Source: Cristatella mucedo (taxonomy: Eukaryota > Bryozoa > Phylactolaemata > Cristatellidae). Taken from it: DNA of 64,000 nucleotides. A program made the translations under genes and the position numbers. The stretch is taken from the NCBI GenBank assembly GCA_009760855.2, contig WPIO01000071.1, positions 1,340,001-1,404,000 on the forward strand. Reading direction: 5' to 3'. A model generated the notes under the pieces. The model was not told the DNA's origin, searched no databases, and saw nothing but the letters and a program-made list of their open reading frames with translations. Of this stretch, positions 26,251-52,429 are shown one piece after another. Positions within the stretch are counted from its first letter, which is position 1. Each line of letters opens with the position of its first letter.

Positions 26251-26945
26251 GATCTTCATCGAGACTAGAGGGTCATGCGGTGTAGTCTCTCTCGCTTGCG
26301 AAAAGGGAATGCTGCTGGGTCGGTTCAGTGGCCTATTAATGGCCGCCAGCTGCCGGAGCTCAACGCAGCAGCTCTCAACAACGTTCTTAGCTGCTTCTCA
26401 GCTCTCAGTGCCGGCCGGAAACCGACCCTGTCGCTATTTTCTGGCATGCGATTCATCTCCCCTTTCTGCTGTTCGGTCTGTGGGTCCTGTACTGCTTCCT
26501 TCTGTTGATGGGTCGCCAGGATGCAGACTGTCGTGATGGCTGTCATGGCTGTGGTTACAAACGTGGCATGCGACTTCCACGTCCGGATAAGCCACAAACG
26601 CAGAGCTCACAATGGTGCCAATCGCAGCCACTGCCCGAGGAATAGCAGAGACGCCTTAACCTTGTAACACGGCTAGCCACTCGAATGTACCGAGTCGGTA
26701 TCCGTAATGTAGACAAGTCCATTTGACAGCAGCCGAGGGTTACTGGCGTGCAGCAGCTCCCGCCTCGTACACCGACGGCACAGTTGAGAGCTCCAACAGA
26801 GCTCAAATCTGCCCCTATGCCAATGCTCTGACCTTCGCTGACCAAAGCTGACCTGTGACCTGCAACAACGGCCATCTCGTACACCGACGGCTCTCCGACC
26901 TACAGCTCAAGTCAGCTCTGATGCCAAGTCTGGAATCACCAAGTT
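26251..26945. other. No gene supported
   Basis: A minus-strand open frame (26325-26597) has a short hydrophobic run but no recognisable family. Confidence 0.35.
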
Positions 26946-26949
26946 CATC

Positions 26950-28233
26950 TAGAGCGCATCTCGTCTGGCCTTGGAGTCACTGGCACTGCTCTGCAATGGT
27001 TCAGGTCCTATCTCAGTGGGAGACTCCAGAGTGTTGACGTGAATGGACAAAGATCATCTGAGGTACCTCTGAAATATGGCGTACCTCAGGGCTCCGTACT
27101 AGGTTCGGTTCTTTTCACGGTTTATACTCTCCCCCTTGCTGATGTGCTTGCCAAGCACAATCTAAGCTTTCAGTTCTATGCGGATGACACTCAGTTGTGA
27201 TCCCTCCCAGCCTTCGAGCACCTCGAATTCTCTCAACTCCCTTGCTGCATGCATCGATGACATCCGCATGTGGATGGCAGCAAATTTTCTAAAACTAAAC
27301 GATGATAAAACTAACTTGTTAGATGTGTGCAAACCCAGTGTGATTCCGAATTAGGAAAGGCTATCCCTCAAAGTCGGCTCTGCCAGCATATCTCCTGTTA
27401 AATCAGCTCGAAATCAAGGTCTCATGCTCCAAAGTGACCTCTCAGTAGACGACCACATTAGCTCCACGATCAAGTCTGCCTACTTTCAGATACATAACGT
27501 TTCTAAAATTCGGGCTTGTTTGGATATGAATACCACATCCAAGTTAGTAATTGCTTGACTTTTGTAACTCACTGCTTGCTTGGCTACCGGTATGTGCAAT
27601 CAGGCGCTTACAGCTGGTGCTAAACTCTGCACCTAGGCTTGTCTGTCATGAGCATTGCAGTTGCCAGATCACACCACTTTTCGCCAACCTGCACTGGCTA
27701 CCAGTCAAGCAACGGATCGACTTCAAGGCATTGTCGCTCACTTATAGGTCACTGTATTCTTTAGCTCCAGCGTATCTCTCAGATCTACTCCCCCACCAGG
27801 CCAAGCATCATACCACCCACTTTTCGGAATCCAACAGTTTATCAATACCTCGTACAAACCTAAAATCCTTTGGAGACTGTGCATTTAGTTCACATGCTCC
27901 CAAAGCCTGGAACTCCCTCCCGACTTGCGTCAGAACATTACATGACCTGACCTCATTTAAAAGGAACTTAAAAACACCTATTTAGGACAGCATGTAGTGG
28001 GTCCTCTGATTCGTACTTCATGTGCTTATGTATGTTGACACTGTGCATGCTGCCACTAACCACACTGGCATGCTAACCCCTTGCATCGCATCCCTAACCA
28101 TGGTATTCATGTTGTTTATCAAGCATGGTATTACTTATCATTCAATCGCGTTTCCCTTTGCAGCAAATGCATAGCGCCTAGAAAGAGATTGAGTTCTCTG
28201 AGGGCGCTTAATGAAGCGCATCATTATTAACTT
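26950..28233 (+). mobile_element. LINE-A (L2/CR1-like), 5'-truncated copy with RT and thumb
   Basis: The copy starts in the RT (LQWFRSYLSGRL-type) and continues GSVLGSVLFTVYTLPLADV and a YADDTQ-type site near 27180, then the thumb (open frame 27551-27985: LHWLPVKQRIDFKALS, LAPAYLSDLLPHQAK). The 3' UTR ends in the family tail (aaatgcatagcgcctagaaagagattgag...gcgctt) at 28233, where LINE-B abuts. There are many frameshifts. Confidence 0.8.
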
Positions 28234-28234
28234 A

Positions 28235-29895
28235 GCCCTGCCATAACCAAAATTTGTAGCACTTCTTTGGGAAAAGAGGTCGTTCCTAAGTCCTTCAAAT
28301 CGGCAATCGTTAGACATATTCTTAAAAAGCCTGGATTGGACACAGAGGTCCTAGCAAACTATCGCCCATTTTCCCTTATTCCTTTCTTATCAAAGATTCT
28401 TGAAAAAGTTGTTGCTAAGCAGCTGGTTAAACACATTGAAAATAATGGAATGTCAGAAACATTTCAATCAGGGTTCAAGAGCTACTCAAGCACTCTACTG
28501 AAACTGCTCTCCTCCATGTTAGCAATGACATTCTACGTGGCAACGACGACAGGAATGTCACTGCCCTAGCTCTGCTAGATCTGTCTACTGCCTTCTACAC
28601 CATTGATCACGAAGTTCTGCTTGAACGATTGAGAACAACGATCGGTCTGGCAGACGAAGCACTGGTATGGTTTAAATCATACTTGTCCAATCGTGTTCAA
28701 TCCGTGTCGTGTGGGGGTCATGTCTCAGACACGAGAAGGGTCAACTGTGGATTCCCTCGAGGGTCTGTACTCGGTCCCTTGCTGTTCTCCATTTATACAC
28801 AACCTCTGGGTAAAGTGATTAAGGCCCATGGGCTAGGATATCACTTCTATGCTGACGATACTCAATCGTATTTGTCATTCAAACCGTCGGAATCTGCTGC
28901 AGCAACTGAGAAACTGAATGCTTGCCTTGCCGATATTCGATCCTGGATGTCGGAAAACTTCCTGAAATTAAATGATGAAACTGAACTGCTGCTCATAGGA
29001 CACCCTAAGCGTGTGGCTGGATTAAAAGGCTTTGCCGTCCTAATAGGTGACGCTATAGTGCAGCCATCACCACGTACTCGAAATTTCGGTGTCGTGTTCG
29101 AAAGCTACCTCAATTTCAAAAGCTTCATTCAGAAGACTGCCTCTACAGCTAGCCATCACATCCGATCCCTGTCCAAGATTAGGAGCTGTCTCCCACAGTG
29201 GCTAGTAAAACATTTAACTAGCTCTCTAGTTCTGTCTTGGCTTGATTCTTGTAATTCCCTTTTAGCTGGGCTGCCAACGAAAGCTATTGCACCACTGCAG
29301 CGGACTTTGAATATGGCTGCAAGGCTAGTCTTCAAGTACCAGCGGTTTGAGCACGTGTCTCCTTTGCTGAAAGAGCTAGGATGGTTGCCGGTTGAGCAAA
29401 GGATACAGAGCAAAGTTTTTACGCTGACGCACAAGGCCCGCCACGGCTTGGCTCCATACCTAGCTGAACTGCTGCACCAGTTTCAGCCTGTTCGCGCCCT
29501 CAGGTCCTGTGTGGACAATAAATTAGCTGTCGCATTCCTTCGCTTAAAGACCGTTGGCGACAGAAGCTTTAGCTCTGCAGGTCCTAAACTTCGGAACTCG
29601 CTTCCACAATTCTTGCGAAACGACAGCTACTCTCCTGCTGCCGATTATGGCTCATCCTTTTCAACGGTCCTGAGCTGCTACTTCTAGGCTACTCCCTACC
29701 TCAACTGCTCTCCTGACTTCACTACATGCTTTCCACTTTCTGTTTGTTGAGTGAGACGAAGTCTGTTGGGTACCGAATGCGTACCGAAAGCAGCTTAGGC
29801 TGTGAGTATGCTATACAAAACTCTCCTGCGTAACACCCACATGGTCTTTATGACTCTGTGGAGTTACAGACGGAGATTCATTAATATTATTTAAT
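28235..29895 (+). mobile_element. LINE-B, best-preserved copy (CR1/L2-like non-LTR element, RT domain)
   Basis: Two open segments (28267-28569 and 28629-29687) carry the RT: ANYRPFSLIPFLSKILEKVV (fingers), RGSVLGPLLFSIY, then the catalytic FYADDTQ near 28845 and an intact thumb to VLSCYF. A frameshift or stop at about 28570-28630 separates them. The 5' endonuclease part is missing. The 3' end has the family's usual gagttacagacggagat signature followed by an ATT-rich tail. It begins directly at the 3' tail of a LINE-A copy, so it inserted there. Confidence 0.85.

Positions 29896-35265: not shown

Positions 35266-35317
<52 letters not shown>
35081..35317. repeat. Compound microsatellite (GA)n-(CG)n-(CA)n-(GA)n
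   Basis: About 35 GA, 12 CG and 18 CA units, a degenerate CA part, then about 23 GA units. Confidence 0.95.
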
Positions 35318-36002
35318 TCATGGGAACGCTCTCGTCAGAGGTATGACGAGCTGCTGCTATTCTGCAGCTAGTTATGCTTCTAGACTAGCAATTGATAGGT
35401 TAAATATGTTGGCTTATGTTGACTAGTTATTCCCGCGTGAGGAAATTGCAGGATGCTCTTTGAAAGGTTGATCAAGCTCCCGTTGAAGCAAAATAATCAT
35501 TTGGGCTAATCTACCTGTCAATCTAGCCTGTTAACCCAATCTATCTCCTTCAGCTAATTACTTAGTATAGCGAGCGAATGAATATGAATTTTCCCCATGG
35601 CCACAAATCTGATTGTAGCCGTGTAGGAGCTTTATGTAACTTTTAACTGACTCTCATACTGATAGAACCAACATAACCCTGCAGTCAGCCTTATCAAACC
35701 ATCGGTAACTTACTGTGCAAGGCTAACTCGTCGCGTCGATAGCTCAATAAGAGTTAGCCTCCCCTCTAGTAGCGATATGGAAGCTATGCTGGTCATCACC
35801 CGGTCAAATATTCTAAATTCGCTAGCTAGTACCGTTGGTAATTGCCCCATGCAGCCACAATGATGAAGCTTATTTAATAATAGGCTGAGTAGTTTGTCCA
35901 TTTTACAGCCCGACGACTAAGCTTCGCTTTTGAGGTCTTCAGAATTTTCCCTTCTATTGGCTGCAGGTGTAATGCACTACGCCTATTAACCGCAGGTGTG
36001 AA

Positions 36003-36179
36003 ATGAATGTAAGCGACATGTCGGACGAACAACTCTGCACAGCCATCAGTGAAGAGGATTTCAAGAGCTGTCTAGAGAAACTCAAGAAATGTTCCTGGTC
36101 GCAAAGTGTGCCCGTGCTTCTTCTCTGCATAAAAGACTCGATTACCGCCGACGAAACGGAGCGGCTAAGCAGCTTGAAG
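36003..36179 (+). CDS. CARD-TRIM gene exon 1 (first half of CARD 1)
   Basis: The exon has 59 codons from an ATG with purine at -3 and ends AAG|GTACGA, phase 0. The protein has a charged helix followed by VPVLLLCIKDSITADETERL, which fits CARD helices 2-3 (LL..l....lt..E.e.i). The exon stops exactly where helix 4 should begin, and exon 2 supplies it. It was too short to stand out as a gene by itself; it is supported by phase and by the continuing fold. DED or another death-fold subfamily is an alternative to CARD. Confidence 0.72.
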
Positions 36180-39100
36180 GTACGAATAAAATGATTGGAC
36201 GTTGCATTGGCACAAATCAAGTGATTGGACCTTGCATTGAAGGTAGAAATAAAATGACCGGACGTTGCTTTTAAAGTTGCTCGCCCCTGGAGTTTATTGG
36301 AGTTCAACAAAAGCTCGTGTTAATAATAATAATGCACTTGATAAAGCGCCCCCAGAGAACTCAATCTCTTCATAGGTGCTTTACATTTGCTGCAAAGAGA
36401 AGCCCAATTGAATCGTGAGTAATATCATGCTTGATAAACAACGTGATTAACGTAGTTAGGGGTTCGATGCACAGGGTAAGCATGCAAATGTGGTTAGTGG
36501 CAGCATGTACAGTGTCAGCTCGCATAAACACATGAAGAGCGAATCACAGGGACCCACTAAACGCTGTTCTAAAAAGATGATTTTAAGTTCTTTTTAAATG
36601 TGGTCACGTCAGGAGATGTTCTTACGCATGTCGGGAGGGAATTCCACGCTTTGGGAGCATACGAATTAAATGCACGGCTTCCAAAGGATTTGAGGTGTGT
36701 ACGAGGTATTAGTAAGCTTCTGGATTCTGAAAAGCGGGTGATACGATGCTTGTCCTGGTGGGGGAGGAGATCTGAGAGATAGGCTGGAGCCAAACAAGGA
36801 AATGACCTAAAAGTTAAAATGTGGTAAATTATATATGATATACATTATTAGAAGTATTATTATATAAATTATTAAATATTATTATATAAATTAATTTGCA
36901 TACTGTTTGCATATTTGTGCACTATAACGGATGATGAGTTGGTTACTTTTCAATAGTTTTTCAATAGTTCAACAGAGACGTAATTCGTGCTCCTAGTCGT
37001 TGTCTTGGTCCGACGAATACACGAGTATCAACTCAATTGGTGCTTCGATTTTGTATGACTGCACAACTTATCACATCTGTCCAGTCATCCGCATAGCTCA
37101 TGACCGGATGTCTGGACTTTGACTAGTTGTCAAAGACAGGAAATCCATATTACGGTATACCACAAATAAATTGGCCCATGTGTTTGTGACATCCCGTCTT
37201 GACTTCTGTAACTCACTGCTTACTGGTCGACCGGCCTGCCCAATCAGGTGCCTAGAGTCGGTGCAGAACTCTAAAGCTAAGCTTGTCTGTCGTGAGCATG
37301 GCAGTGGCCACATCACACTAGTTATTACCGACCTGCATTGACTTTCAATCCTGCTGCACATCGACTTCCAAGTTCTGTCACTTACGTTTGGGTCCCTTCA
37401 TTCTCTGGCTCCAGCCTACCTATCAGAACTTTTCCCCGCCAGGCCATCGTAACACCTGCTTTTCGGAATCTAATTTCTTACCAATACCCCATACAAGCCT
37501 CAAGTTCTTTGGAGAGCACACCTTTATTCGTATGCTCCCAAAGCCTGGAACTCACTTCCGACTTGCGTCACAACATTTCCTGACTTGACCACATTCAAAA
37601 AGTAACTAAAACGCGTCTTTGTATCACACAATTTAGTGGATTCATGCAGCAATCCTTTACGTGCTTATTCGTGCTGACACTGTGCATGCTTCCACTAACC
37701 ATACTTGCATGGAATAACCCTGTGCATGTCACCATTAACCGTGTTATTCTTGTTTATTGACCATGCTCCCACCAACCATTCGATCGCGCTTCCTTTGCAG
37801 CAATTGCAAATTGCCTTGAAAGAGATTGAGTTCTCTGAGGGCGCTTTATCAAATCCTTTATTATTACTATTATTACATGCATATTATTTCAGGCTCAAAT
37901 AATCCGGCGAATCTTGAATATCTTGGTGACTTAGTAAATGCCCTGTAACTGAATCATTAAACGCAACTAGCAGCCTTTTCGGCGACTCCCTGCAACATTG
38001 AGGTAAGATCGGACATGTATGTTTGAATACACGACTTGGTTTTTATGCTACGCTTATGACAAGTGCTGGCAAACTACTCCATTATAAGAGTTTATCCAAG
38101 AGGTCATTGCCAGTAGTTTTTGGAAGGTCTCCATTGAAAGTTCTCCAGCGACCTCTGCTCGCTGGTGGCCTAAGGTAATGGCCTACGTCTAGGTTTAGAG
38201 GTTTTGCATAGAACATTTTAGTAAAGTTGACTTTCATTGGCGACTAAACGTTAGAGTTAAGGAAAGAGCTGTCGGGTGAAGGCGGTTGTTTTAGTAAGTG
38301 TCCTTCACGCGATGTCACGCCACTGTATGGATGTCTGTTCTCCGACCTATTGCTGTTTTATTCACATAATCAGTCGCACCAGTGACACATAATAAACTTC
38401 TATTGGTAATCATGCTCACTTTTAACAGCCACTCACTTTTCAAATTTCCAGTTAATTGTGTGTCAGGACAAGTCAAACCGATCCATTGATGCTGTACAAG
38501 CTTGGATACAAGCTTGTTGACTAGGAAAGACGCTTGTCGTACCAGCCGTTGAAGATCAGTGTGCACCATGAACTTCTGTTTGCATTAAACAGCGACGCCT
38601 TCAATTGTAGGACAAACACAACCAGTCTCTTAATCATCTCATTGATTTCATATCCAAAAAGCCCAATGCGAGGCTGAAATTCATCGAAAGTCTGACGAAG
38701 AGTCTTGACAAGCCAGCGATTCATAGGCAGCTGATGGAAGAATTCCGGCAGGCAATTCGAGCGTCTCAGCCTTGCCGCGTCGAGCTGGTCGAAGAGTACG
38801 AAGAGCTGGCTGTTGTCCTCAGGTAGGTCAGTGGTTTATTGGGTCAGCGGTTCATCGGGTCAGCGGTTGGGTTAATTAGGCTGTGATGTTTTCCGCCTCG
38901 CATGTTTACTATACTGCTATCATACTTAACTTATCTACTTATTTTCTTGCTCTGAAAGTTATAGGTCTTCTAGTTAGGTGCCAGCTGAGGAAAGCGCCGG
39001 GGAACCTAAAATAAGAGCGGCATTTTAAGGAAAGAAAGTTGTTTTAGTTTCAAGACGAACTTGCTGTTGGTAGCTAAATTCAGGAGCACCAATTTATCGA

Positions 39101-42100
39101 AGGCCTGGAAAATTCTGGCTTCCGGTCTTTAGATGATTATCGTGCTATTCACATTGGTAGCCATTTACCAAGTCTCTTGATCACGAAAAATGTCTTCACC
39201 GGCGACCATCAAGTGTGCTCGAGTATCAAGTTTTGGGACATTACTCTACCCGTCGACCGGTCTCATGTCTTCGTATAAGGTTACCAACATCGAATTCGTA
39301 CAAGAAAATTAACTTAAAAAGCATCCCAGCCGAGAGATGTTTGCGATGCATGTCTCGATCTGCTATCAGACGCTGCTGCCATTTCGTTGACGTCGATGCT
39401 GTAAACTGGAAAGAGACGAGTGAGCACGAAATTTTGAATCAAAATGTCACCTTTCTTTTTACCAAATACCATCTGTAAAGGCGCCATATAAAACGCGGAC
39501 TATGAAATGCAGATTTAGGCTTGAGTTGGACATTGATCACTCTCCAAGTTAAAAAATGCGTCTGCGTCTATGTATACTTGGAAATTTAAGAAAGCCAAGA
39601 AGCTTTGTTAGCTAGCAAGCCGCCACTCCCCTTCGTTTGCTCTTTGCAGTCGTGGCACGCAGACCCTAAGCCAATTTACACGATGCTGAAATACTTTCTT
39701 AAATATAATGAACGATCAGACTATATTAATTATATTAATAATATTAATTATATTGTAGTATGCGGATATTAACTGTATGGCTGATATTGCATAGGCCTTC
39801 TTTTCTGAACGATACACACGTTGTTGTGCCTTATAGTGCCACCATTGTTGTGCCCCCACCCCTGCCTAATCTCAGAGTTCAGTCACATCTTGTAGCCTAC
39901 CTTAAGATATTTTGATTGGATACCCTGTATTAAGTAGGTCCCACAATTGAGGCCGGTCACATTGCTCGTCAGCTTCACCTTCAGACTCTGCACGACTCCA
40001 TCTTTGCTATTAACCGGTGGAGACACGTAGCCGTGAACCACGAAAAAAATAAAAAGAATTTCTTCTTATTGTCTCTTATTATTTATTGGCCTTTTCCAAG
40101 CCATTCAAATCGGCCATGGTTCAACCGATAATTTGAAAGGCTTGGTTAGATTCTGAGGCCCTAGCAAATTACTAAAACCCGGTGTTTCTTATTCTTATTC
40201 CTGAGAGTCTTCCTTAAGACTTAAAAGACATCTTAAGATCTAAAGATACTCTCTAAGATCTTAATCTAAACCTTAATCTAAAGATAATCTCAAAGATCTA
40301 AATCTAAAGACATCTAAAAGACAGCCTTAAGACTTAAAAGACATCCTTAAACATTTTTGTCTGAGTTTCACTGTCTCGTTGTAAAGCATCAAATCCACTT
40401 TATTATCCCATATCTTACCTACAAGGTACATCACGTAGTTGCACCAGCCTACCGATCTGACCTATGTTCCCGAAGAGTGTGCTCGTGCATCAGCCTTCCC
40501 GGCTTCCGGCTAATTCATCACGCTCTTGAAATCTTTTGATAATCTACAGCCTACAGTTCGTGTGCAAACAAAATCTGGAACTCACTTATGGCGTTTGTCG
40601 ACATCTGAGCTGACGTTGCATCATTTAAGTCTCGGCCAATCAAATCTGTTCCGCTAGGTATCCACCGGAAGCGCCACAGTGAACTCTTCCTTTTCCTCGG
40701 TGCATTACTAGCCTGTCACCTGACTTCATATTGCCTGTTCAATTACCTGTTCATGATTCAGTGGATGCTGTTATAAGGAATCGTATTAACCAGATGCCCC
40801 GAGTGTACTCTTGTGTGCTTTCATATGCATACTAAGAAAAATAATATCATTGAATTTCCCAAGTGCCCTCAACGAACCTGATCTTTTCTAGGTACTTTAC
40901 ATATGCTGTAGAGGAAGCATGATCATATGGTCAGTAGTAGCATGCACAATGCCAATAAGGACAACATGATTAGAGATGACATGCATAGGGTCAGTATGCC
41001 AATAGGACTAGTGACAGAATGCACAGTGTCAGTAGGCTTAAGCATACGAAAGACGAATCAAAAGGACCCACTAAATGCTGTCACAAATAGATGCGTTTGA
41101 GCTTTTTTAAATTTGGTCATGTCAGAGCATGTCGTGACGTCTGTCGGAAGAGAGCTACAGGCTTGGAGAGTATACGAACTAAAGGCACTGTCACCAAAGG
41201 ATTTGAGGTTTATATGAGGTGTATCTAAACAATTTCATGCAGACACTATCCTGGTGGGAGAGTGGTTCATGTAGATAGGCTGGAGCCAGAGAATAGATGG
41301 ACCTAAATGTGAGCGACAGAACGTGGAAGTCGATATGCTACTTGATTGGATGACAGTGCAGGTCGGCTAGAGGTGGTGTGATCTGGCAACTTCGACGCTC
41401 CCGACAGACAAGCCTAGCTGCAGAGTTTTGTACTGACCGTAATCGTCTTTTTGAACACGCCAGAGAGAACAGCAAGCAGTTAGTTGCAGAAATCGAGATG
41501 GGATGTTGCAAATGCATAGACCAATTTAGATGTAGTATTCCCTGTCTAAGCAAGCCCGATTTTAAGCAATGTTTTGCTGGCTAAAACTAAGCAGACTTTT
41601 CTCTAGAGCTAATGTGATCCTCTATGTAGAGGGAAGATTAGAAGCAGCTGACGTCAATAGTTGTATCTTCTTATGATTTCGTTAGTTGTGCAGCCAATCG
41701 CATATTGTTTGGTATCAGTGCTGCTTCGCTTGCCCAGAGCTGGACTTGCGGTGCTGACAGCTTCGTCACGTACCTATCGAATTCCTTTGCTGCGGATTCA
41801 TTTTTAATACTTGACAGCACCATTCAACCGGGCGTTTCTGCCTGAAGTGGCTGCTAGATGAGGAGCCCCATTATCTGCCAGTCCGTTACCTTTTCTTTTA
41901 GGCCCGACGAGAAAGCAAAGCTGACAGATAGAGACAAGATGCTGCTGTGTCCTGAATGTGATTGTGTTATGGTGCGACCGGTGCTTCTCAAATGCCTGCA
42001 TTCGTTATGTCGGGGCTGCGTAGAAAAACTCAATCATCTGGCGTCGAACAGCGGCTCCTCAAAGCCTAGCACGCCTGTAGACGGGGGCCAGGTTCACTCT

Positions 42101-45100
42101 CAGGTCGCTTTGGACTGTGATGGGAAGCAGTCGTCGACTGCGATCGCCGAATCCGAAGTCCACGGCAGCAGCCACAGCTTCCGATGCCCAGAATGCGATG
42201 AAGTGCACAGCGGCGAGCTCGTAGAAAATCGACACGTAACGTTCGGCATCATCTTGCTTGCTGAGCGTCTGAAAGGATGTCAGTGCCGCCGATGCAGTAA
42301 AGCAGTCGCCAGTAACGAGGGCGAAATGTTCCACTGCAGCCACTGCAGCGGCTACTTCTGCAGCAGCTGTGCACAGGCTTGCTCTGACAATGGGCATACA
42401 CTGCACGAGCGAGAAGCATTCATCGTCCAGAGCGTCCTGACTTGCAAGGAGCACGACTTACCGCTGGAGTTCCTCTGCGTGAACTGCAAAGCCTGGCTCT
42501 GCAATGACTACCCGAAGCGAACGTGTGGAGCCCATGAATTGAAACCGTTTTCTGGGTTCGGTCCCCCAGATTCGAGGGCACAAATAGAGGAGCTGCACGA
42601 CCAAATCGGAATGCGAATAGAGTGTGTCGACAGACTTTTAAAGTCGCTGACGGATGCTCATCAGTACGGCACGTCCATTCTTGACTCAAAAGATGGCTGC
42701 ATCTTAGAACAAGGACGACACGTTGTAACCCGGTTTCAAAGTTTGCTAGATCGGTCTCAGATCTTGAGCACACCTGAAAATCCAACGACCGGCCTAACAG
42801 AACAATGTGATAACTCCTTTTCCGAGCGTCGTATGTCGACGCCAGGCGACCGCGACTGTGAAAGAGTTGGACAAATGCCTGGTAAGCCACCGAGATTCGC
42901 ACTAGGACTTGTAAGCTGCGTCCGCCATTGATGTCCTATGCCTTCACAACTAGTGCTCTTACAGGAAACATGTGGTAACAGTATTCGATTCATCAAGCAT
43001 TTTCTTAGGCCAAGACCATTATAAACTCATTCATTTGTTGGATTGATCGCTTCCAAAAGATCAATGTTAAGTAAATACTCACTAATATGATACTAGAAAT
43101 GAGCACAGCAGGATATCACTTTTATGCTGACAATACTCAGCTGTATTTTTGCTGTATTTGTCAGCTGTATTTTTCATTCAAACCGTCGGAATCTGCTGCA
43201 GCAACTGAGAAACTGAATACTTTCCTTGCCAACATTCAATCCTGGATGTCGGAAAACTTCTTGAAACTAAATGTTGTGCGACCATCACCACGAGCTCAAA
43301 ATTTAGGTGTGGTTTTCGACAGCTGCCTAAATTTTAAAAGCTTCATTCAGAAGATTGCTTCTATAGCTAGTCATTATGTCCGATCCCTATACAAGATTAA
43401 GAGCTTTCTTCTGCCGTGGATTGCATACAATTTAACTAGCTCCTTAGTTCTATCTTGGTCGATTATTGTAGCTCTCTTTTGGCTGAGCTGCAAAGAAGGC
43501 AACTAGGCCACTGCAGCTGGCTCTGAATACTGCTGCTGCAAGGCTAGTCTTCAAATCCCAGAGGTTTGAGCACGTGTCTCCTTTGGAAAAAAAGCTAGGA
43601 TGGATGCCGGTTGAGCAACGGATACAGATTAAGTTCTCACGCTGACCCACAGGGCCCGCCACGGATTGGCTCCTTCTTACCTAGCTGTACTGCTGCATCA
43701 GTTTCAGCCTCTTTGCGCCCTCATGCCCTGTTTGGACAATAAATTAGCTGTTTCGTTGGCGACTAGACCGTTGGCGACAGATGCTTTAGCTATGCAGGTC
43801 CTAGACGGTGGAACTCGCTTTCACAATTCTTACGCAACGACAACTACTCACCTGCTGCCCAATATGGCTCATGCTTTTCAACGCTCCTGAACTGCTACTT
43901 CCATGGTACCCTTTACCTCAACTGCTCTCCTGACTCTGCTATGCTTCCCACTTTCTCTTTTTTGCGTGAGACAAAGTCTGTTGGCTACCGAATGCATACC
44001 GAAAGCTGCTTAGGCTGTGAGTGAGCTATACAAAACTCTCATACGTAACATCCACATAGTCTTTATGACTTTGTCGAGTTACCGACAGAGATAAATTACG
44101 TTAAGCTTAGGCCTGGCAATTCTAAGATTCTGATTCCATTAAAAATATAAATATTCATAAACATAATAGGTCAATAGTATGGCTCCCTAAGAGTTCTCCA
44201 TCAAGTCACTTGTCAACACGGGAAAAACAAAGCATGGTTTGACTATTTCTCTATACATCTACGAAGTGCTGCTTAAATGGCTTGCTTTTAATACGGCTGC
44301 CAGTGAATTTTTTATGTCATAAATCGCTCTAATAATGTGAAAAGATCTTCAAGCTCACAAGGGTTAGTTAGCTTCTACAACTATACTTTCAGTAGTGGAG
44401 AAATTTCTGAAGCACCTTACAATGTGTCGATACGCCTGGGCATTAAGTACTCAAGTCGGCATTAGCATGATTTATTATTAATTAATAAAATGCATATTAA
44501 ATAATAATTAGCAATATTAAATCAATGCATTCGTTTCAATAATTTTCAATATTGGGCTGAACCAAACAGGATTTTTTTATAGCTCTTTGCACACCGTGAT
44601 AATCAAACCATTGTCAATCATTTTGGTCATCATCAGTTGGCAGCTGTCACGAAAATGCCCAGAAACTGACACTGCATGCCGTATACACAGTAGTAAAAAA
44701 TTAAAGCAGCGGGACTCGCTGTTACAAAACGTGATTGTAGTGGTTTTTATAGTAATAATATATTAAAAATACGTTTTTAAAGTGCTCTCAAAGAACGCAG
44801 TCTCTTTCTAGCACTTCACTTTTGCTGGCACGCACATGGTCAGCATTCAAATATGGTCAGTGGCAGTATGCACAGTGTCAGCACGCATAAGCACACTAAG
44901 GTCAAATCGCAGGGACCCACTAAAGGCTGTGATGAATAGGTGCGTTTTTAATTTCTTCTTAAATGTGGTCATGTCAGGAGATGTCGTGGTGCAGTAGGGG
45001 GTGAATTCTAGGCTTTGGTAGAATACGAGCTAAAGGCACCGTTTACAAAGTATTTGAAATTTGTACTGGGTATAGGTCAACGATGGTATAGGTAAACGAT

Positions 45101-46145
45101 GGTACAGGTCAATGATTAGATTCCGAAAAGTGTGTGGGGTGGTGCTTAGACTAGTGGGGGAGTCGATCTGATAGGTAGGCTGGAGCCAGAGACTGAAGGG
45201 ACCTGAAAGTGAGTGAAAAAACCTTGAAGTCGTCGAGTTGCTTCACTGGGAGCAAGTAAGGTCGGCAATAAGTGGTGTGATGTGGCAACTGCGACGCTCA
45301 CTACAGACAAGCCTAGCTATATTTCCGGGTGAGCATGTCATTTATCTGCTGCAAAAGGACGATATTGTGCACTTGACTACTATCTGTTTTAAGTGCCCTA
45401 ACGCAATATATCTTTTATTTCCGAATCTCGTAGCGTACTTACAAGAAGACGAACTACAACTTTCAAGCCTCACCTGCGACGGCCTTGCACCCGGACAACC
45501 CTTAAGCCTCACAAGGAACCAACGTAATCCTGACAAGCCATTGCAGACCAACGACAGTGGCAGTATTATTTCGGAACTCGCAGAGCAAGAGAGGAGATGC
45601 GATCACGAAGACTTTGGGGTAACTTGTACTCTCCGTTTGTCCCTTCACTGTGTGACCGTAACTTGCAGTGGTGATAGCCGTCAAGGCTCTTACGTCGCTA
45701 TACAAAAGAGGCTGTTAAATCAACTAGTATTTGTTATCGCTAACCAGTTTATGTTCGTCCTCATTAATAATAATAATAATTATGATACTACACTTGATAT
45801 TTGACCCACAGGAAACTCAATCTTTTTCTAGGCACTTCGCATTTCCTGTAAAGGAAGCACGAATAAATGGTGATTGGTAGCATGCTCAATAAACAACAAG
45901 AATAAAACGGTTAGGATTGACATGCACAGGGTCAGCATGCAAGTGCGGTTAGTGTCAGCACGCATAAACACATAAAGGACGAATCACAGGGACCCACTAA
46001 ATGCTGTGATAAGTACATGCGTTTTTGGTTATTTTTAATGTCGTTTTTCTGTCTTATTCCATGTTAAGTGCCCGGAAAAGTATACAGTTTCCTTAGCAAA
46101 TATTGTTATAATACATACACACATATATATATATATATATATAAG

Positions 46146-46176
<31 letters not shown>

Positions 46177-49100
46177 ATATAAAATTAATTAAATATAACT
46201 ATTACACACACATTATATATATATATACACATATATATATATATATATATATGTTATACTAGAAAACTATATTAGTATTACAATATTATATGTTATTATA
46301 ATATTATATATGTATAGCGGAATAAGGGTGCTTGAGAAGTAGTACTTGAATTCACGACGAAGCTGCTCAACTGTGCTTGATCAGGTGCTCGACAATGGTG
46401 CTTGACAAAGGTGCTTGACAATAGTGCCAAGTTTTAGATGGACTGCATAGCTCTCAATATCAGGCCTTAACTTTTCTTTTTACACGATCCAGGCTACTTA
46501 CCGTTCTGGTATGCCCTTCAATTTTTAAGTTAAATGTGAAATTGTGTCGAGTGAGCAAGCCCTCTTATAAGGTCGCGGAAAAACTTGACAAGCGTCTAAA
46601 ACTTTGCTGCGGTATGCAGTATGGTGTAGCCTGCTTTCTGACTCAAACCCGCGATCAGGGTTCGTTATATATCACTGCAAACTTTACTTATCATCTTACA
46701 AATGAAATTTAAGAGATCAATATGTCGAAGTCAAGCGTCTTATCTCTTTAAACCACGCTTGTTTCAGTCCATGTAAGTGATATTGTCACGCTTTTTTTAT
46801 CAGACCTTAATGGACGAAGTGAGTCGCTTGAAAATATTGCCATCGTCAGTTTCACAACGTGATGGGTAAGCAATTTGAATAATTTTCATACGTATCCGTA
46901 TCAGTTGGTGGATGCACTGCAATTGTTTACACACACATCAATACACACACATACATTTTTACAGGTGTTCTTGTACAAGGCGTGGTCAGAGATGATTTTC
47001 TTATAAGAAAATTGATAATTAGAAGTAAATAAATAAAAAATAAATCCTAGCTGATTAAACAGCCTCTTTTTGTATAGCAACAGAAGAGCCTTTACGGCTA
47101 TCATCACCGCTTGCAGTGGCGATAAAGGATCGCCCACTGCAGGAATCGAACCCACGACCTCGGGGCCGAGGACGTGAAAAGCAACCGCCTTACCTAGTGC
47201 GCCATCACAAAAATTTTAATCTGGTCTGTAGATTATAGAAATCTATAAAATATAACGTTTATTAAAAGTTCTTTTAATATAATTCATTGTAGTTATCGCA
47301 AGCAATCATATCTAACGTTGAGCTCATGAAATAATGTAGTTTATTGTTGCCGTTCGTTGAATCCTGTCTTCTGAAATAATTTTTGCATGGCAAAAACCAT
47401 GCAAGACACTGAGAAACTAATTATCTTGCTATATATGTGTACATATATATGTACGTATATATAGATAGATTTATAGCATATAGATCACCAGATCGCTAAC
47501 CTCTAGGAAAGTCACAAGACTCTGGCATACGATCTAAGCAAATTTTGCGAAGCTCAGTAATGTGTTATTAAATGAGAATTACGTATAAATTTACAACCAA
47601 ATTTTTGAACATGTGCATATTTTAAAATTTTATCTCATGAAATAACTAGATGTGTGACTGCCCTTGTTAGTCCTATAGCAGCTCTTATTCAATATCTTTT
47701 AAGGAACGACATGAGATGGCTATGTCAAAACCTACTTTGAAAATAAGTTAACAATAACCTAACAATAATTTGACAGTGACCTAAGCTACACCGTGCTGTG
47801 AGCTACGGCGAAGTTAGCATGGCGCGATAGCTAGTCTTACTTCGGTATGATCTAGCAGAAAAGATGTCCGTGTTCCTGATATGCCAAAGCGTCATACATC
47901 AAAGAGCAGGTAGGACGTATGACGTGTAAATGTATGATGTATGACGTATATCTATACATCAAAGAGCATGTATGACGTGTACGATTCGCAGTCGCAGTAA
48001 GGAAAAAAGAGCTTGACCACCAGAATCAGGGCCCTGAGTAAAGTAGCATTGATTCAAATTTACATTTATTGCATTCACACTCAAAGTCGTGGAGTACATT
48101 TATTGAATGACTGAAATCGTATAATGCCTAAGTGCTCTGGGACACTCCAGCTTATTCTTGCATAGTATATGTTCACAGTCAACTCTCTACAGCGTATGAA
48201 GTGCCTAGAGAAATGTGCCAAACTCATATATCGTGATGAACAAAAAATAAAGTTTACAATTATATTTTATATTGCGCGAAATTCATCATTTTTCCCTGTG
48301 CTTCGTGCTGGAGCTTGGTTGTTAAGTTGTTAATCCCTGGTTTAGGGTGTGAAATGCCCTGACAGCAGGTGAGCCTTTCAGTCCCCTATTCTGGATAAAA
48401 ACAAATCCTTTTGGAGGCAGAATTAGGAAGTAACTATATCTTTAAAAATGTCTTTTATACTGATTTATTTGAATGCTACTTAATCTTAATGTATTTTAGC
48501 CTAAGAGTCTATTAAACCTGATAAAATTCGCAGCCGACAAACTTGAAGTAACAGAATTTGTTTGTTATCCTGTTTGTGGCTTACAAAGGAAAACCGACTT
48601 CCTGGCTACCGATGGCCGAATCCTGTTCTCCCCAGTATAGAATTGCTCAGCTCTACTTGTAAGCCACTCACAAAATGTTAAACTGGGCTACTTGGCGTAT
48701 TGTCCGTGTTTTTAAACTTATTTCAAGCATTACTGGCATTAGGTCGTTTATGTCGCCTACTTTTTGATGTAAAACTGCACTTTGGAATTTGCTAAGCCAC
48801 TTAATAAAATATACCATGGGAAAGCTTATCTAGTGACATTTCTGCATTGTTGCATGCTGATTGGATTCATACCGGACGCTTATGAAATAGAAAAATGGAC
48901 TCATTGGAAACTAATACGTCCTATCGTCATCGTCTCGCGTCCCGTTTTTCACTATATATGCATGAGAAATAGAACAGTAGAACAGTAGTCTCTTAATTTC
49001 ATCTTTTTCTGTACAAAATATTAGCAAACCGTAGACGACTCTAAGAGTTAGCCGCAGACCGCAATTACTATTCTCCTATATATCCTCATCCTGTTTCTAA

Positions 49101-50608
49101 TTCTATGTTTAATTCTGGTTAAATACGGAAGCCCTCCTGCAAGCATTGTACAGTTTAATGGCGTGTTACGTCGCTGAGCCCAAGGTAATTGCATTGACAG
49201 GTCTCAAGACTGCAGCCGACACCAGTGTGTCATCGGGGAGAAAGCTTTCAGAGAAGTTTCAGCCAAAATAGTGCGTCGTCTTACTATGCCTCTAACGAAA
49301 ATCATGACCGGGGCACTGCATGCCGCCAGCAGCTTGAACAGTGCAGAGATGGAACATATTCTGGTAAGATGGTGTCTCTGATCTGCATTCTCAAGATCAT
49401 AATAATCAACTACATAAAACTACATGACTGATTTGAACTACCAGACTAGCAATAAAGATGATAACGCTTCTTGAAAGTCACGTGTGTCGCGACATCTTCT
49501 GACGTCGCGAAGTTCTCTGACTTGATGATGACGTTTAACAGCAAGCTAAACATTTGCCCATTTCGTGCATCATTTGGTGGGCCCTTGTGATCTGTCATTC
49601 GTGTGCTCACGTGTGCTGACGCTACACACGCTGTTGCTTATCATATATACATGTTAACAATATGCACGTTGCCTGGAACCGTATGATGTGTGTTGTCATT
49701 GTGCATATCAGCACTAACCACCCGATCATTCATTTATATAGAATTTATATAGCTTCATTTATATAGCATATTTTAAGTGTCAAGAAAAAGATTAAGTTCT
49801 CTGATGGTGCTATACAATCAGGCATTTGCAGCTGGTGAAAAACTCTGCAGCTAAGCTTGTCAGTCGTGAGCATCACAGTTGCCACGTCACACCACTTCTC
49901 GCCAACCTGCACTGGCTACCACTCACGCATCGCATCGACTTCAAGGTTTTATCGCGCACTTTTAGGTGCCTTCATTCTTTGGCTCAAACCTACTTATCAG
50001 ATTTACTGCCCCATCAGTCTAAGCATCACACCGCCTGCTTTACGGAATCTCACTGTTTACCTATACCTCATACAAACCTCAAATCCTTTAGAGACAGGGC
50101 ATTGAGTTCGTATGCTCCTAAAGCCTGGAACTCACTCCCGACTTGCGTCACAACATCTCCTGACATGGCCACATTTAAAAAGAAATTAAAAACGCACCTA
50201 TTCATCACAGCATTTAGTGGGTCCCTGTGATTTGACCTCTATGTGCTTATGCGTGCTGACACTGTGCATGCCACTAACCACACTAACCACACTAGCATGC
50301 TGACTTTGTGTGTGTCACCTATAATCATACTATTCTTGTTATTTGTTGAGCATGCTACCACTTACCAGTCGATTGCACTTCCTTTGCAGTAAATGTAAAG
50401 CGCCTAGAAAAAGATTGAGTTCTCTGGGGGGTCTTTATCAGGTATATTATTATTATTATCAAAAATTGATTAATTTTATTATAGTCAGGGATTAACCACT
50501 GCAGTGTCTCTAATACTGCAATTTCGCTGTCTAGCCGCACATCTAAACAAGTTCACATCCCGTAGATGCACGTCTCTAGAGATCTCATGCATTTCGTTCC
50601 TATGCATG

Positions 50609-50693
<85 letters not shown>

Positions 50694-52163
50694 CTTATTT
50701 TCTAGCATGTGCAATTGCATATGCATTTGCAATGTCTGGAATAAGATTTATGCTCAACCACTGCCACGAGAGGATAATCCCATGCTCAACCACTGCCACG
50801 AGAGGATAATCCCATGCTCAACCACTGCCACGAGAGGATAATCCCATGCTCAACCACTGCCACGAGAGGATAATCCCATGCTCAACCACTGCCACGAGAG
50901 GATAATCCCGTGCAACGCTTACTTGACCTATTCACAGTCTCGACTCAGCTACATTTCTCAATCCGTCGATTACAATATCTATATAATATATATAATATTA
51001 ATAGTTTGTATTAACTTCAAATCCTTTGGAGACCGTGCCTGTAGCTCGTATGCTCCCGATGCCTAGACATCACTCCCGACTAGTGTCACTACCTCTCCTG
51101 ACTTGATTACATTTAAAAAGAAACAAAAACGGATCTACGTGTCACAGCATTTAGTGGCTCCCTCGGATTCAACCTGCGTGTGCTTGCGTGTGCTGACACT
51201 ATACATGCTGCCACTAACCACACTTGCAAGCTGACCCTGTGCATATCACCCTAACCTTGTTAATCCTGTTGTTTATTGACCGTGCTACCAGTTCGATCGT
51301 GCTTCCTTTGCAGCAAATGTAAAGTGCCTAGAACGAGATTGAGTTCTCTGAGGGTGCTATATCGAACATACTATTATTATTATTGTTATTATTATTGATT
51401 CAAATCCCTTGACGTGCATGACGATCCCGACTTCGACTAACCCTTATTAAATGACCGACGTTAAATTTAAGCCTCTAATAGGAGTGCATATATGGTAGAC
51501 TAAGTATATACAAGAATACACTTTAAATGAAAGTGCGGTGGGTGAGCTTTCATAATTTTTTTCAAGATAGTGTCATCTGTCACTGTCATATAAGTTCTCA
51601 ATTATCTCTGGCGTTCAGCATAGCGCACGCATTACACATATCTCTAGTGCCCCGTCGGTAGTGTCAAAGTCTACATTTGGGACTATAGGATTTTAGAGAA
51701 ATTATTAATATTAAGAGTGACTGAACGTGCGTTCGTGATGCTACCAAAGTTTTCCAACTACCTAACTGAGCCAAAGGCAATAGGACTGAAGCTGTTTTGA
51801 CCATACTTATGTCAAGCTGTGCCATTGTTTATAATTAGTCTCTGGATTTATATTTTCCCCGAGATTTCCTATATTTCTGTATTAACTGCATATATTTCCT
51901 CTTTGACTCTAGATCTTTTGATTGGTTAATAATCTTGAGATTTTTTTCAGGCTGTTGACGATGCTTTTTCTATGGCAAGCAGATTAATTGGAACACTTCA
52001 AATTAAGGGCATTAATGGGATCAGTGAATTATACAGGTTATTGAAAAAAGAAGACTGCGGTACATATGAACTATTTGCTGAGCTGCTTCAAAATTCAAAG
52101 CGGTGCAAAAATCCCACCCACTTTCCGAACACAGAATCCGAAGGATCTTTACCAATGCAATAG
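36003..52163 (+). CDS. Predicted CARD - RING - B-box - coiled-coil - CARD protein (TRIM-like E3 ligase), 8 coding exons
   Basis: Proposed coding exons are 36003-36179, 38611-38822, 41902-42881, 45434-45618, 46804-46865, 47856-47909, 49201-49363 and 51951-52163. Every junction has GT/AG ends and the phases agree, giving about 681 residues. Domains: CARD-like fold about 10-100; C3HC4 RING 146-228; B-box 1 about 258-298; B-box 2 311-341; coiled coil about 355-417; Ser-rich linker; second CARD about 572-658. Family knowledge: the RING of TRIM proteins recruits E2 enzymes for ubiquitin transfer, B-box and coiled coil drive oligomerisation, and CARDs make homotypic contacts in apoptosis and innate signalling. 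Inference: a cytosolic ubiquitin-ligase adaptor with two CARD interfaces. No SPRY, NHL or filamin domain is seen. Introns hold LINE-A, LINE-B and SINE copies. Exons 5 and 6 are the least certain. A 5' UTR exon may lie further upstream. Confidence 0.78.
36320..36815 (-). mobile_element. LINE-A 3' part in intron 1 of the CARD-TRIM gene
   Basis: It begins with the (AAT)n tail and reversed 3' signature. The minus-strand translation includes LAPAYLSDLLPHQ-type thumb sequence ending KSSF. Confidence 0.7.
37165..37885 (+). mobile_element. LINE-A 3' part in intron 1, plus strand
   Basis: The thumb (VTSRLDFCNSLL-type) leads to a 3' tail with ATT repeats. With the preceding minus-strand copy it forms an inverted pair about 350 bp apart. 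Confidence 0.7.
38611..38822 (+). CDS. CARD-TRIM gene exon 2 (second half of CARD 1)
   Basis: This short exon is open for 70 codons plus 2 nt. The acceptor is ...caattgtag|GAC and the donor CTCAG|GTAGGT. It encodes SLNHLIDFISKKPNARLKF and then ESLTKSLDKPAIHRQLMEEF, which fits CARD helices 4-6 (LLd.l..k...f..F...L....h..L...). The phase 0 entry matches exon 1, and the phase 2 exit joins to the single G that opens exon 3, making an Arg codon. An in-frame stop directly upstream of the acceptor supports this boundary. Confidence 0.7.
40085..40700 (+). mobile_element. Diverged LINE fragments in intron 2 with a minisatellite between
   Basis: 40085-40205 resembles the LINE RT start (aaaggcttggttagattctgaggccctagc). 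40208-40345 is a degenerate array of gatctaaaga / cttaaaagacat units. 40380-40700 resembles the LINE-A thumb (VAPAYRSDL). Confidence 0.5.
40838..41590 (-). mobile_element. LINE-A 3' part in intron 2
   Basis: Reversed 3' signature and tail at the left; the thumb lies at about 41300-41550 (SVQNSAARLVCRERRSCQIT). Confidence 0.7.
41902..42881 (+). CDS. CARD-TRIM gene exon 3: RING, B-box 1, B-box 2, coiled coil
   Basis: The acceptor is accttttcttttag|G and the donor CCTG|GTAAGC, phase 1. There are 326 whole codons. The RING ligands are C146, C149, C161, H163, C166, C169, then C225 and C228 (CPEC, KCLH, CRGC, CPEC); a 55-residue Ser-rich insertion separates C169 from C225, longer than usual. B-box 1 has CRRC and CSHC pairs at about 258-286. 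B-box 2 starts CKEH (311) and continues CVNC. Its expected CxxC/D pair is C-N-D-Y, so Tyr replaces a usual metal ligand and a later Cys (338) stands where His is common. A heptad-like segment (EELHDQIGMRIECVDRLL) follows, as in TRIM B-box C-terminal coiled coils. An ATG at 41858 upstream of the acceptor could give a shorter isoform without CARD 1, but it lies in the predicted intron. Confidence 0.9.
43085..44105 (+). mobile_element. LINE-B copy in intron 3
   Basis: A FYADNTQL site (Asp to Asn in the catalytic pair) lies near 43122, followed by a deletion to the MSENFLKLN region and then the thumb and a 3' end without a long tail. Confidence 0.75.
44755..45330 (-). mobile_element. LINE-A 3' part in intron 3
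   Basis: Reversed tail and 3' UTR up to gcgacgctcactacagacaa. It ends about 100 bp before the exon 4 acceptor. Confidence 0.65.
45434..45618 (+). CDS. CARD-TRIM gene exon 4 (linker)
   Basis: The acceptor follows a pyrimidine-rich run (tcttttatttccgaatctcgtag|CG). The first two bases complete the phase 1 codon left by exon 3. It has 61 whole codons, polar and acidic, containing QPLSLTRNQRNPDKPLQ and ELAEQERRCDHEDFG, and ends GGG|GTAACT in phase 0. The same open frame runs on both sides of the proposed exon (45238-45804) through LINE-A sequence upstream and SINE sequence downstream, so the boundaries rest on splice motifs and phase only. No known domain is seen. Confidence 0.6.
45664..46060. 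mobile_element. SINE type 1 body (+) followed by reversed LINE-A tail
   Basis: 45664-45740 has the SINE body (gtggtgatagccgtcaaggc). 45765-46060 is a minus-strand LINE-A 3' end with an AAT tail. Confidence 0.6.
46110..46320. repeat. AT-rich microsatellite cluster
   Basis: Several (AT)n and (TATA)n runs. Confidence 0.9.
46804..46865 (+). CDS. CARD-TRIM gene exon 5 (small linker exon, tentative)
   Basis: This 62-nt exon lies between a strong acceptor (cacgctttttttatcag) and a good donor (GATGG|GTAAGC). It reads TLMDEVSRLKILPSSVSQRD, entering in phase 0 as exon 4 requires and leaving in phase 2. It is too short for a homology call. Confidence 0.5.
47040..47212 (-). mobile_element. tRNA-derived SINE type 1, minus strand, in an intron
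   Basis: The reversed body (ctgattaaacagcctcttttt) is followed by the reversed B-box (ggaatcgaacc) and A-box (ccttacctagtgcgccatca). Confidence 0.8.
47856..47909 (+). CDS. CARD-TRIM gene exon 6 (54-nt symmetric exon, tentative)
   Basis: The exon is bounded by ...atgatctag|C and GCAG|GTAGGA. It is 54 nt long, phase 2 to phase 2, and encodes RKDVRVPDMPKRHTSKS. Being symmetric, it could be skipped without shifting the frame, since exon 5 also joins exon 7 in phase. Its 3' end resembles a sequence repeated about 60 bp downstream (catcaaagagca), so it may be a chance splice match. Confidence 0.35.
49201..49363 (+). CDS. CARD-TRIM gene exon 7 (first half of CARD 2)
   Basis: The acceptor is gcattgacag|G (weak pyrimidine tract) and the donor TTCTG|GTAAGA. 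One base plus 54 codons are open, in phase 2 to phase 0. The protein AFREVSAKIVRRLTMPLTKI leads to NSAEMEHIL, matching CARD helices 1-3 (helix 1 Val-Arg-Arg-Leu-Thr and a helix-3 E.E.I motif). Another open frame across the same stretch is Ser/Gln-rich with no recognisable fold; the CARD frame is preferred because it also joins exon 8 in phase. Confidence 0.68.
49560..50455 (+). mobile_element. Composite LINE-A in intron 7
   Basis: A tail-like segment at 49755-49810 fuses into the LINE-A thumb (open frame 49826-50230: LHWLPLTHRIDFKVLS, LAQTYLSDLLPHQSK) and a 3' tail with ATT repeats. Confidence 0.75.
50609..50694. repeat. (AT)n microsatellite
   Basis: About 38 pure AT units, then a short interrupted end. 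Confidence 0.95.
50750..50908. repeat. 32-bp tandem repeat, five copies
   Basis: The unit runs from tgctcaaccactgccacgag to aggataatccca. The copies are identical by eye, except that the last reads cccg. Confidence 0.95.
51010..51395 (+). mobile_element. LINE-A 3' end in intron 7
   Basis: The sequence aatcctttggagaccgtgcc ... gcctagaacgagattgagtt is followed by ATT repeats. Confidence 0.7.
51951..52163 (+). CDS. CARD-TRIM gene terminal exon 8 (second half of CARD 2)
   Basis: A textbook acceptor (gagatttttttcag|GCT) opens 70 codons to a TAG stop. The segment ASRLIGTLQIKGINGISELY followed by RLLKKEDCGTYELFAELL closely follows CARD helices 4-6 (rLldlL..kG..gf..L...L......ell). About 20 residues follow, ending SEGSLPMQ. 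The phase 0 entry equals the phase of the exon 1/exon 2 junction, at the same helix 3/helix 4 border as in CARD 1. Confidence 0.75.
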   Translation, partial: AVDDAFSMASRLIGTLQIKGINGISELYRLLKKEDCGTYELFAELLQNSKRCKNPTHFPNTESEGSLPMQ

Positions 52164-52423: not shown

Positions 52424-52429
52424 AATAAA
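52424..52429 (+). terminator. Candidate polyadenylation signal of the CARD-TRIM gene
   Basis: AATAAA lies about 260 nt after the stop codon of exon 8, a reasonable 3' UTR length. It could be a chance match; a GT-rich element further on was not established. Confidence 0.35.

Follow-up and report, generated by a model that had tools for sequence, protein, structure and literature searches.

A predicted seven-exon gene of Cristatella mucedo encoding a TRIM protein with a C-terminal CARD and a probable N-terminal CARD

Caspase and inflammasome platforms are built by death-fold domains, and TRIM ligases act on them as external regulators. Pyrin/TRIM20, which acts in inflammation and cell-death signalling, consists of an N-terminal PYD, a B-box/coiled-coil part and a C-terminal B30.2 domain and is not known to have a RING. 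cIAP1 and cIAP2 have BIR and UBA domains and one internal CARD, and are not known to have a B-box or a coiled coil. 'Pyrin' is a class in the figure legend of PMC3137616, and TRADD-N-TRIM is presented in the sections consulted of PMC8195603 as a death-pathway domain fused to TRIM in invertebrates. The cIAP1 CARD is able to restrain the RING, as stated in the relevant section of PMC8917759, which cites Lopez et al. 2011. The locus described here lies in a stretch of 64,000 nucleotides of the Cristatella mucedo contig WPIO01000071.1 (hereafter the window), for which a first-pass annotation had proposed an eight-exon gene with a TRIM exon flanked by two CARDs.

In-phase joining of seven exons on the forward strand between positions 36003 and 52163 of the window produces 663 codons free of stops, and all introns of the predicted gene are bounded by GT and AG. 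The phases are compatible, as the first-pass annotation had claimed, but seven exons already satisfy them, and so the eighth was dropped as a requirement. Exon 1 (36003–36179) contains the ATG and the first half of an N-terminal CARD-like domain (residues 1–59), with an in-frame stop at 35970 on the 5' side of the ATG, and ends in a phase 0 donor among the top 1.5% of GTs. The second half of this domain (residues 60–129) is encoded by exon 2 (38611–38822; phase 0 in, 2 out), which has a weak acceptor (top 9.9%) and a strong donor (top 0.4%). Exon 3 (41902–42881; phase 2 in, 1 out) is the TRIM exon, with an acceptor in the top 0.09% of AGs and a donor in the top 0.7% of GTs. Exon 4 (45434–45618; phase 1 in, 0 out) encodes a linker (residues 457–518), and because its open frame extends past both borders (45217–45801), these borders are set by the splice sites alone (acceptor top 9.6%, donor top 5.5%). 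Exon 5 (46804–46865; phase 0 in, 2 out; acceptor top 0.5%, donor top 2.2%) adds a short linker (residues 519–538) and is the least certain exon of the gene model. The first half of the C-terminal CARD (residues 539–593) lies in exon 6 (49201–49363; phase 2 in, 0 out), which has a donor in the top 0.8% and, like exons 2 and 4, a weak acceptor (top 11%). Exon 7 (51951–52163; acceptor top 0.2%) completes this domain and ends with the stop codon (residues 594–663), and the first AATAAA 3' of the stop codon on the same strand, at 52424–52429, is a possible polyadenylation signal. No second copy of the gene was found within the window by tblastn.

Comparison with null open frames has shown that exons 1 to 4 and 7 are protein-like. 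None of 2000 null frames equals exon 1, and the null fractions are 0.002, 0.0185 and 0.0035 for exons 2, 4 and 7, respectively; the coding signal is weak in exons 5 (0.086) and 6 (0.0555). The antisense strand of exon 2 is as protein-like as exon 2 itself. When forward-strand open stretches of at least 35 codons in the region from 34 to 54.5 kb are ranked by protein-likeness, exons 3, 4, 2, 7 and 1 supply five of the first six frames, and they still supply five of the first seven among the 308 stretches of both strands. The protein-likeness of the exon frames thus exceeds chance.

The clear TRIM exon of the first-pass annotation is borne out by the ligand patterns of a RING and two B-boxes in exon 3. 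The RING (C146–C228) retains all eight C3HC4 ligands around a 55-residue insert, B-box 1 (residues 258–298) has eight of eight ligands in a loose pattern, and B-box 2 (residues 311–341) has seven of eight, with Tyr333 replacing one. Amphipathic stretches after the B-boxes, within residues 358–413, are consistent with a probable short coiled coil at about residues 354–418. An AlphaFold prediction of exon 3 alone gives two helices in a low-confidence model (pLDDT 36) that speaks neither for nor against the predicted protein. The nearest PDB matches of the RING are TRIM34, PML and TRIM21, and exon 3 is homologous to other TRIM exons of the same genome. A profile search of the joined protein, proposed earlier as a check, brings the CARD over its Pfam cut-off but leaves the RING and B-box under theirs. 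The Pfam E-values are 4e-4 for RING_UBOX and 0.0016 for zf-B_box, both under cut-off.

The CARD match of the whole 663-residue protein scores 29.2 bits against a cut-off of 23.9. Exons 6 and 7 joined reach 23.2 bits (E 6.9e-5), 0.7 bits short of the cut-off, and Pfam gives no CARD match for exon 6 alone or exon 7 alone. Their join ranks first on the CARD profile among 4409 splice-joined peptides of the window, remains first of 5605 when the joining limits are loosened, and is matched in score by one of 20000 shuffles. With a profile extended by the CARDs of two loci of this genome, C659 and C133, the join scores 10.6 bits and is again ranked first, with 2 of 20000 shuffles. In hhalign against ten CARDs the C-terminal part has a probability of 8.8% and the N-terminal part 1.5%, and a PDB sequence search with either part yields no CARD match. 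One of these PDB searches raised repetitive designed armadillo proteins through summed weak matches. The profile match supports the prediction that the last two exons encode a CARD.

A CARD-like fold at each end had also been claimed; the C-terminal one stands, but the first exon pair stays under the cut-off and is suggestive only. Exons 1 and 2 joined score 13.9 bits on the CARD profile (E 0.057), and the other Pfam families listed for them, Nipped-B_C (E 0.005), Dredd_N (0.0068) and ParE_toxin (0.17), are under cut-off as well. The join ranks 10th among the 4409, and an unrelated join (13692–13789 with 17035–17209) outscores it with both the original and the extended profile. The extended profile brings no gain (6.3 bits, rank 11 of 4409, 167 of 20000 shuffles). 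Exons 1 and 2 are therefore regarded as a probable CARD, for which the evidence within the gene itself is suggestive only. The best support comes from a TRIM relative, G000:C659 (C659), found in a search of the 572 Mb genome, since it has a CARD-like exon pair just 5' of its TRIM exon with the same intron phases (0, 2, 1). This pair is the best of 2896 joins there, and CARD is the only Pfam family listed for it (14.8 bits, E 0.029, under cut-off). The introns splitting both CARDs of the window gene are in phase 0 at profile positions 44 to 47, about the same place as in C659. A phase-2 acceptor is common among TRIM exons of the family, and so part of the phase agreement is ordinary TRIM homology; a phase-1 donor ending the TRIM exon occurs in C659, C114 and C81, three of the 18 loci examined by donor pattern. 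Direct similarity between exons 1 and 2 and the C659 pair was not detected by tblastn, and a pairwise MAFFT alignment of both N-terminal regions was left out since it misplaced the exon junctions. The six best joins of C659 include no 3' CARD, and C114 has no CARD within 20 kb (best join 3.3 bits). The 3' exons of C659 and C442, of about 360 codons, look propeller-like by eye; in Pfam, that of C659 gives only E 0.21 and that of C442 no match. Used as tblastn queries, neither of these exons has a counterpart in the window (best E 0.64).

These observations make it an even call that the locus is one gene with seven coding exons, whose 663 residues form a CARD-like domain, RING, B-box 1, B-box 2, a short coiled coil, a flexible linker and a CARD, and which belongs to a branch of an expanded TRIM family with a CARD 5' of the TRIM exon. 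Jointly with that reading, and equally balanced, the last exons of the window gene would form a second CARD. The exons may instead belong to a row of separate genes: a CARD-only adaptor (exons 1 and 2), an intronless or otherwise spliced TRIM, and a CARD gene made of exons 6 and 7 with unseen 5' exons. Read-through of the exon 2 donor meets a TAG immediately and would give a CARD-like protein of 130 residues. An ATG at 41858 is in frame with exon 3, whose frame continues to a TGA after 42928, and exons 4 to 6 are the weakest links in splice sites and coding signal. However, the exon 3 acceptor is among the strongest of the window and its donor is strong, the arrangement of exons 2 and 3 recurs with its phases in C659, and exon 6 is unable to begin a protein with a whole CARD: it requires a phase-2 exon 5' of it because an in-frame stop lies directly upstream and no ATG precedes the CARD. 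Such a row of genes is thus rather unlikely.

It is improbable that the only CARD is the C-terminal one and that exons 1 and 2 form a different helical domain. Nipped-B_C tops their Pfam list, and 114 of 20000 shuffles equal them on the CARD profile, but two of the four families, CARD and Dredd_N (the caspase-8 N-terminal domain), are death-pathway families, and a CARD-like pair occupies the equivalent place in C659. Decay of a duplicated TRIM gene, whose exons are still open and no longer make a working ligase, would accord with the sub-threshold RING and B-box, the lost B-box 2 ligand and the repeat-rich surroundings. The 663 codons, however, contain no internal stop and all RING ligands are retained. 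By eye, Tyr also occupies the B-box 2 ligand position in C659 and C114, and so this replacement is not decay private to the window gene. Decay is accordingly considered very unlikely.

If the seven-exon gene is correct, its product may be a TRIM ligase brought by its CARDs to complexes of caspase-like or adaptor type. The protein would dimerise through its B-box and coiled-coil part, and the CARDs would attach it to CARD-bearing partners in the same cell, such as proteins with a CARD and a caspase domain; the genome encodes at least two of these, plus other CARD proteins. The RING would then ubiquitinate the docked CARD complex and adjust its assembly, and CARD contacts may restrain the RING before docking, as has been reported for the cIAP1 CARD. 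There is a tentative possibility, short of an even chance, that a TRIM branch gained CARDs by exon gain at conserved phases and that a ligase bracketed by two CARDs bridges and ubiquitinates CARD assemblies, combining adaptor and ligase in one chain. If so, ubiquitin tagging would be set directly onto cell-death and immune signalling complexes, and a chain with both CARDs and TRIM would allow a direct test of how ubiquitination targets CARD assemblies. It would also illustrate how TRIM proteins diversify, with terminal domains gained or exchanged as whole exons and intron phases kept.

The predicted protein would resemble pyrin/TRIM20 in its probable death-fold domain N-terminal to a B-box/coiled-coil TRIM part, but it keeps the RING ligands and ends in a CARD, and Pfam lists neither PYD nor B30.2 for it up to E 10. 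It would share with cIAP1/cIAP2 (BIRC2/3) a CARD and a RING within a single chain; unlike in these proteins, Pfam finds no BIR up to E 10. The TRIM-exon sequence is common to further TRIM genes of this genome, of which C659 and C442 differ in the 3' exons that look propeller-like by eye. The TRIM classes in the consulted part of PMC3137616 agree with the earlier claim that a double-CARD layout is non-standard, but death-pathway domains fused to TRIM exist in pyrin/TRIM20 and in TRADD-N-TRIM (PMC8195603). As described in the sections consulted of that source, TRADD-N-TRIM proteins likewise combine death-pathway adaptor domains with a TRIM E3 module and occur in animals whose innate immune families are expanded, but carry TRADD-N, usually with a DED, and the order CARD–RING–B-box–CARD is absent from that account. 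Fusions of a death-pathway domain with TRIM are therefore already known, and the predicted CARD–TRIM–CARD layout is a new variation on them.

The candidate CARD-TRIM ubiquitin ligase gene at 36003-52163 on the + strand of the window is read from the sequence as seven exons (36003-36179, 38611-38822, 41902-42881, 45434-45618, 46804-46865, 49201-49363 and 51951-52163) with GT-AG borders and compatible phases of 0, 2, 1, 0, 2 and 0, and their joined reading frame spans 663 codons, uninterrupted by any stop. The first-pass annotation had proposed a TRIM protein with a CARD at each end encoded in eight exons of compatible phases. The compatibility stands with seven exons, an eighth not being needed for it; support is sound for the TRIM module and for the CARD at the C-terminus, a CARD at the N-terminus is probable, and we infer that the seven exons belong to one transcript. 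Exon 3, the TRIM exon, keeps 8/8 ligands of the RING, which has an insert of 55 residues, 8/8 of B-box 1 and 7/8 of B-box 2. Among PDB chains, the exon scores best against the RINGs of TRIM34 (E 3.4e-4), PML (0.021) and TRIM21 (0.049). Pfam lists RING_UBOX, zf-C3HC4 and zf-B_box on this region, each under its cut-off, and AlphaFold yields no usable model of exon 3 alone (pLDDT 36).

Pfam places a CARD on the whole protein at 29.2 bits (E 9.2e-7, cut-off 23.9), a score summed over two stretches. Exons 6 and 7 together give 23.2 bits (E 6.9e-5), slightly under the cut-off, and neither exon searched alone yields CARD. Scored with a ten-member CARD profile, built from six human sequences (matched to PDB chains) and four of the same genome, the join of exons 6 and 7 reaches 12.1 bits and ranks first among 4409 unique spliced peptides of both window strands, a score reached by 1 of 20000 shuffles. 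The same splice-join procedure recovers a split CARD gene on another contig, C133, which is absent from the profile, at 67.7 bits, indicating that the procedure works and that the C-terminal CARD of the window gene is divergent. The exons of this control lie at 20130-20280 and 22955-23149 (coordinates on the fetched records L008-L011 end to end), and its CARD intron is in phase 1, not 0. The hhalign probability of the C-terminal pair against the same ten CARDs is 8.8%, which counts against a CARD.

Exons 1 and 2 by themselves are suggestive only. Pfam lists Nipped-B_C (E 0.005), Dredd_N (0.0068), a family described as caspase-8 N-terminal domain, CARD (0.057) and ParE_toxin (0.17), all under cut-off. 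Their join scores 6.7 bits with the ten-CARD profile and ranks tenth of 4409 window joins, below an unrelated one at 7.4 bits; it ranks 11 when the profile includes the relative on contig C659, and a shortened join (36076-36179 with 38611-38823) ranks second of 5605 under looser limits. The score is reached by 114 of 20000 shuffles (118 in a repeat run), and the hhalign probability against the ten CARDs is 1.5%.

The window lies on contig C656 of a genome of 572 Mb in 688 contigs, whose introns, CARDs, caspase domains and retroelements point to an animal. Exon 3, searched against this genome, recovers its own locus plus 40 further matches at E <=10, of which three reach E <=0.001. By blastp, 18 fetched records match exon 3 at E <=7e-5 within that small set; they represent 17 loci, L035 and L040 being one locus, and the fetched record L034 is left out of the count (19 other records were fetched). 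The best relative, on C659 (E 8e-13), also has a RING insert, and both it and the relative on C114 share with the window gene, by eye, a Tyr at the same B-box 2 ligand position. On C659, 1 kb upstream of the TRIM exon, there is a CARD-profile match (E 8e-4), the only one better than E 1 among 488 sense-strand open frames in the combined C659 and C114 stretches. The six best of 2896 spliced joins at C659 (15.8-16.9 bits) all include this match and an exon ending at 7505, the first half of the CARD, which contributes only about 2 bits and has a weak donor. CARD is the sole Pfam family listed for the pair (E 0.029, under cut-off). At C659 the intron within the CARD is in phase 0, the one before the TRIM exon in phase 2 and the one after it in phase 1, as in the window gene. 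Since the phase-2 acceptor is common to several other relatives, the telling likeness is the position of the pair and its phase-0 intron; a pattern search finds the phase-1 donor at the TRIM exon end in 3 of the 18 loci examined (C659, C114 and C81). The N-termini of the window gene and C659 show no direct similarity at corresponding places by tblastn, and the best join in the C114 CARD search has just 3.3 bits.

The TRIM-exon family is expanded, with members on C659 (L052 and L053), C114 (L054 and L055), C442 (L038 and L056), C30 (L029/L043), C75 (L036) and C99 (L037 and L047), and several of its exons begin with MAQEL and end near GTPKLTTG. Candidate exons of about 360 codons each lie 3' of the TRIM exons on C659 and C442 and look propeller-like by eye, a reading weakened by Pfam, which gives E 0.21 for the former and lists nothing for the latter; used as tblastn queries, the two have no counterpart in the window.

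The protein-likeness of the residues given the base composition of each exon was scored with residue frequencies against 2000 equally long stop-free stretches from elsewhere in the window, and the fraction at least as protein-like is 0 for exons 1 and 3, 0.002 for exon 2, 0.0185 for exon 4, 0.086 for exon 5, 0.0555 for exon 6 and 0.0035 for exon 7. In a model-free ranking of + strand open stretches at 34-54.5 kb, the top six are exons 3, 4, 2 and 7, the stretch 35316-35423, the only non-exon among them, which adjoins a repeat, and exon 1. On both strands (308 stretches), the frames of exons 1, 2, 3, 4 and 7 are within the top seven; exon 2 antisense ranks just above sense (13.3 vs 13.2), and so the signal there cannot tell strand. 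The open frame of exon 4 extends beyond both exon borders. With scoring matrices, the donors rank within the best 0.4-5.5% of 3663 GTs, the acceptors of exons 3, 5 and 7 within the best 0.5% of 4335 AGs, and those of exons 2, 4 and 6 within just the best 10-11%. The donor of exon 2 and the acceptor of exon 6 are both in phase 2, which would allow an isoform that skips the TRIM part and joins the two CARDs.

A dispersed repeat occurs ten times in the window (11055, 14674, 36549, 41063, 44912, 45989, 50202, 51139, 53475 and 55942; <=3 mismatches allowed, 0 copies expected by chance), 6/10 copies lying in introns of the gene, and by eye the copies look like retroelement 3' ends. Reverse transcriptase stretches (Pfam RVT_1) lie at 26922-27197 and 28446-29684, and in the last intron a 32-base unit is repeated five times in tandem (50750-50913).

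With its RING ligands kept, the protein may have ubiquitin ligase activity; the B-box and probable coiled coil would support dimerisation, and CARD-CARD contact would provide recruitment. By analogy with cIAP1, a CARD may autoinhibit the RING until docking releases it. Four loci of this genome are candidate partners. L001 (C111) and L002 (C518) have a CARD and a clear caspase domain (Peptidase_C14). The caspase active-site Cys motif is QACxG, and the corresponding motif is EASRG in L001 and ESSQG in L002, suggesting that these two may be inactive caspase relatives. In L003, which has a CARD, a long polyglutamine run stands at the end of the open frame, and L004 combines a CARD with leucine-rich repeats.

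Among the titles and abstracts returned by full-text searches confined to the open PubMed Central library, none was recognised as dealing with a CARD-RING-B-box-CARD protein, a weak indication that none has been described. No CARD-TRIM fusion was encountered in portions of PMC5094078, PMC2575513 and PMC9334734. In cIAP1, the CARD is reported to restrain the adjacent RING (sections of PMC8917759), and so autoinhibition released by docking would be a specific, testable version of the mechanism. TRIM classification follows the C-terminal domain, with pyrin included (sections of PMC3137616), and work on invertebrates describes TRIM ligases that carry fused death-pathway adaptor domains, as well as shuffling linked to retrotransposons (sections of PMC8195603).
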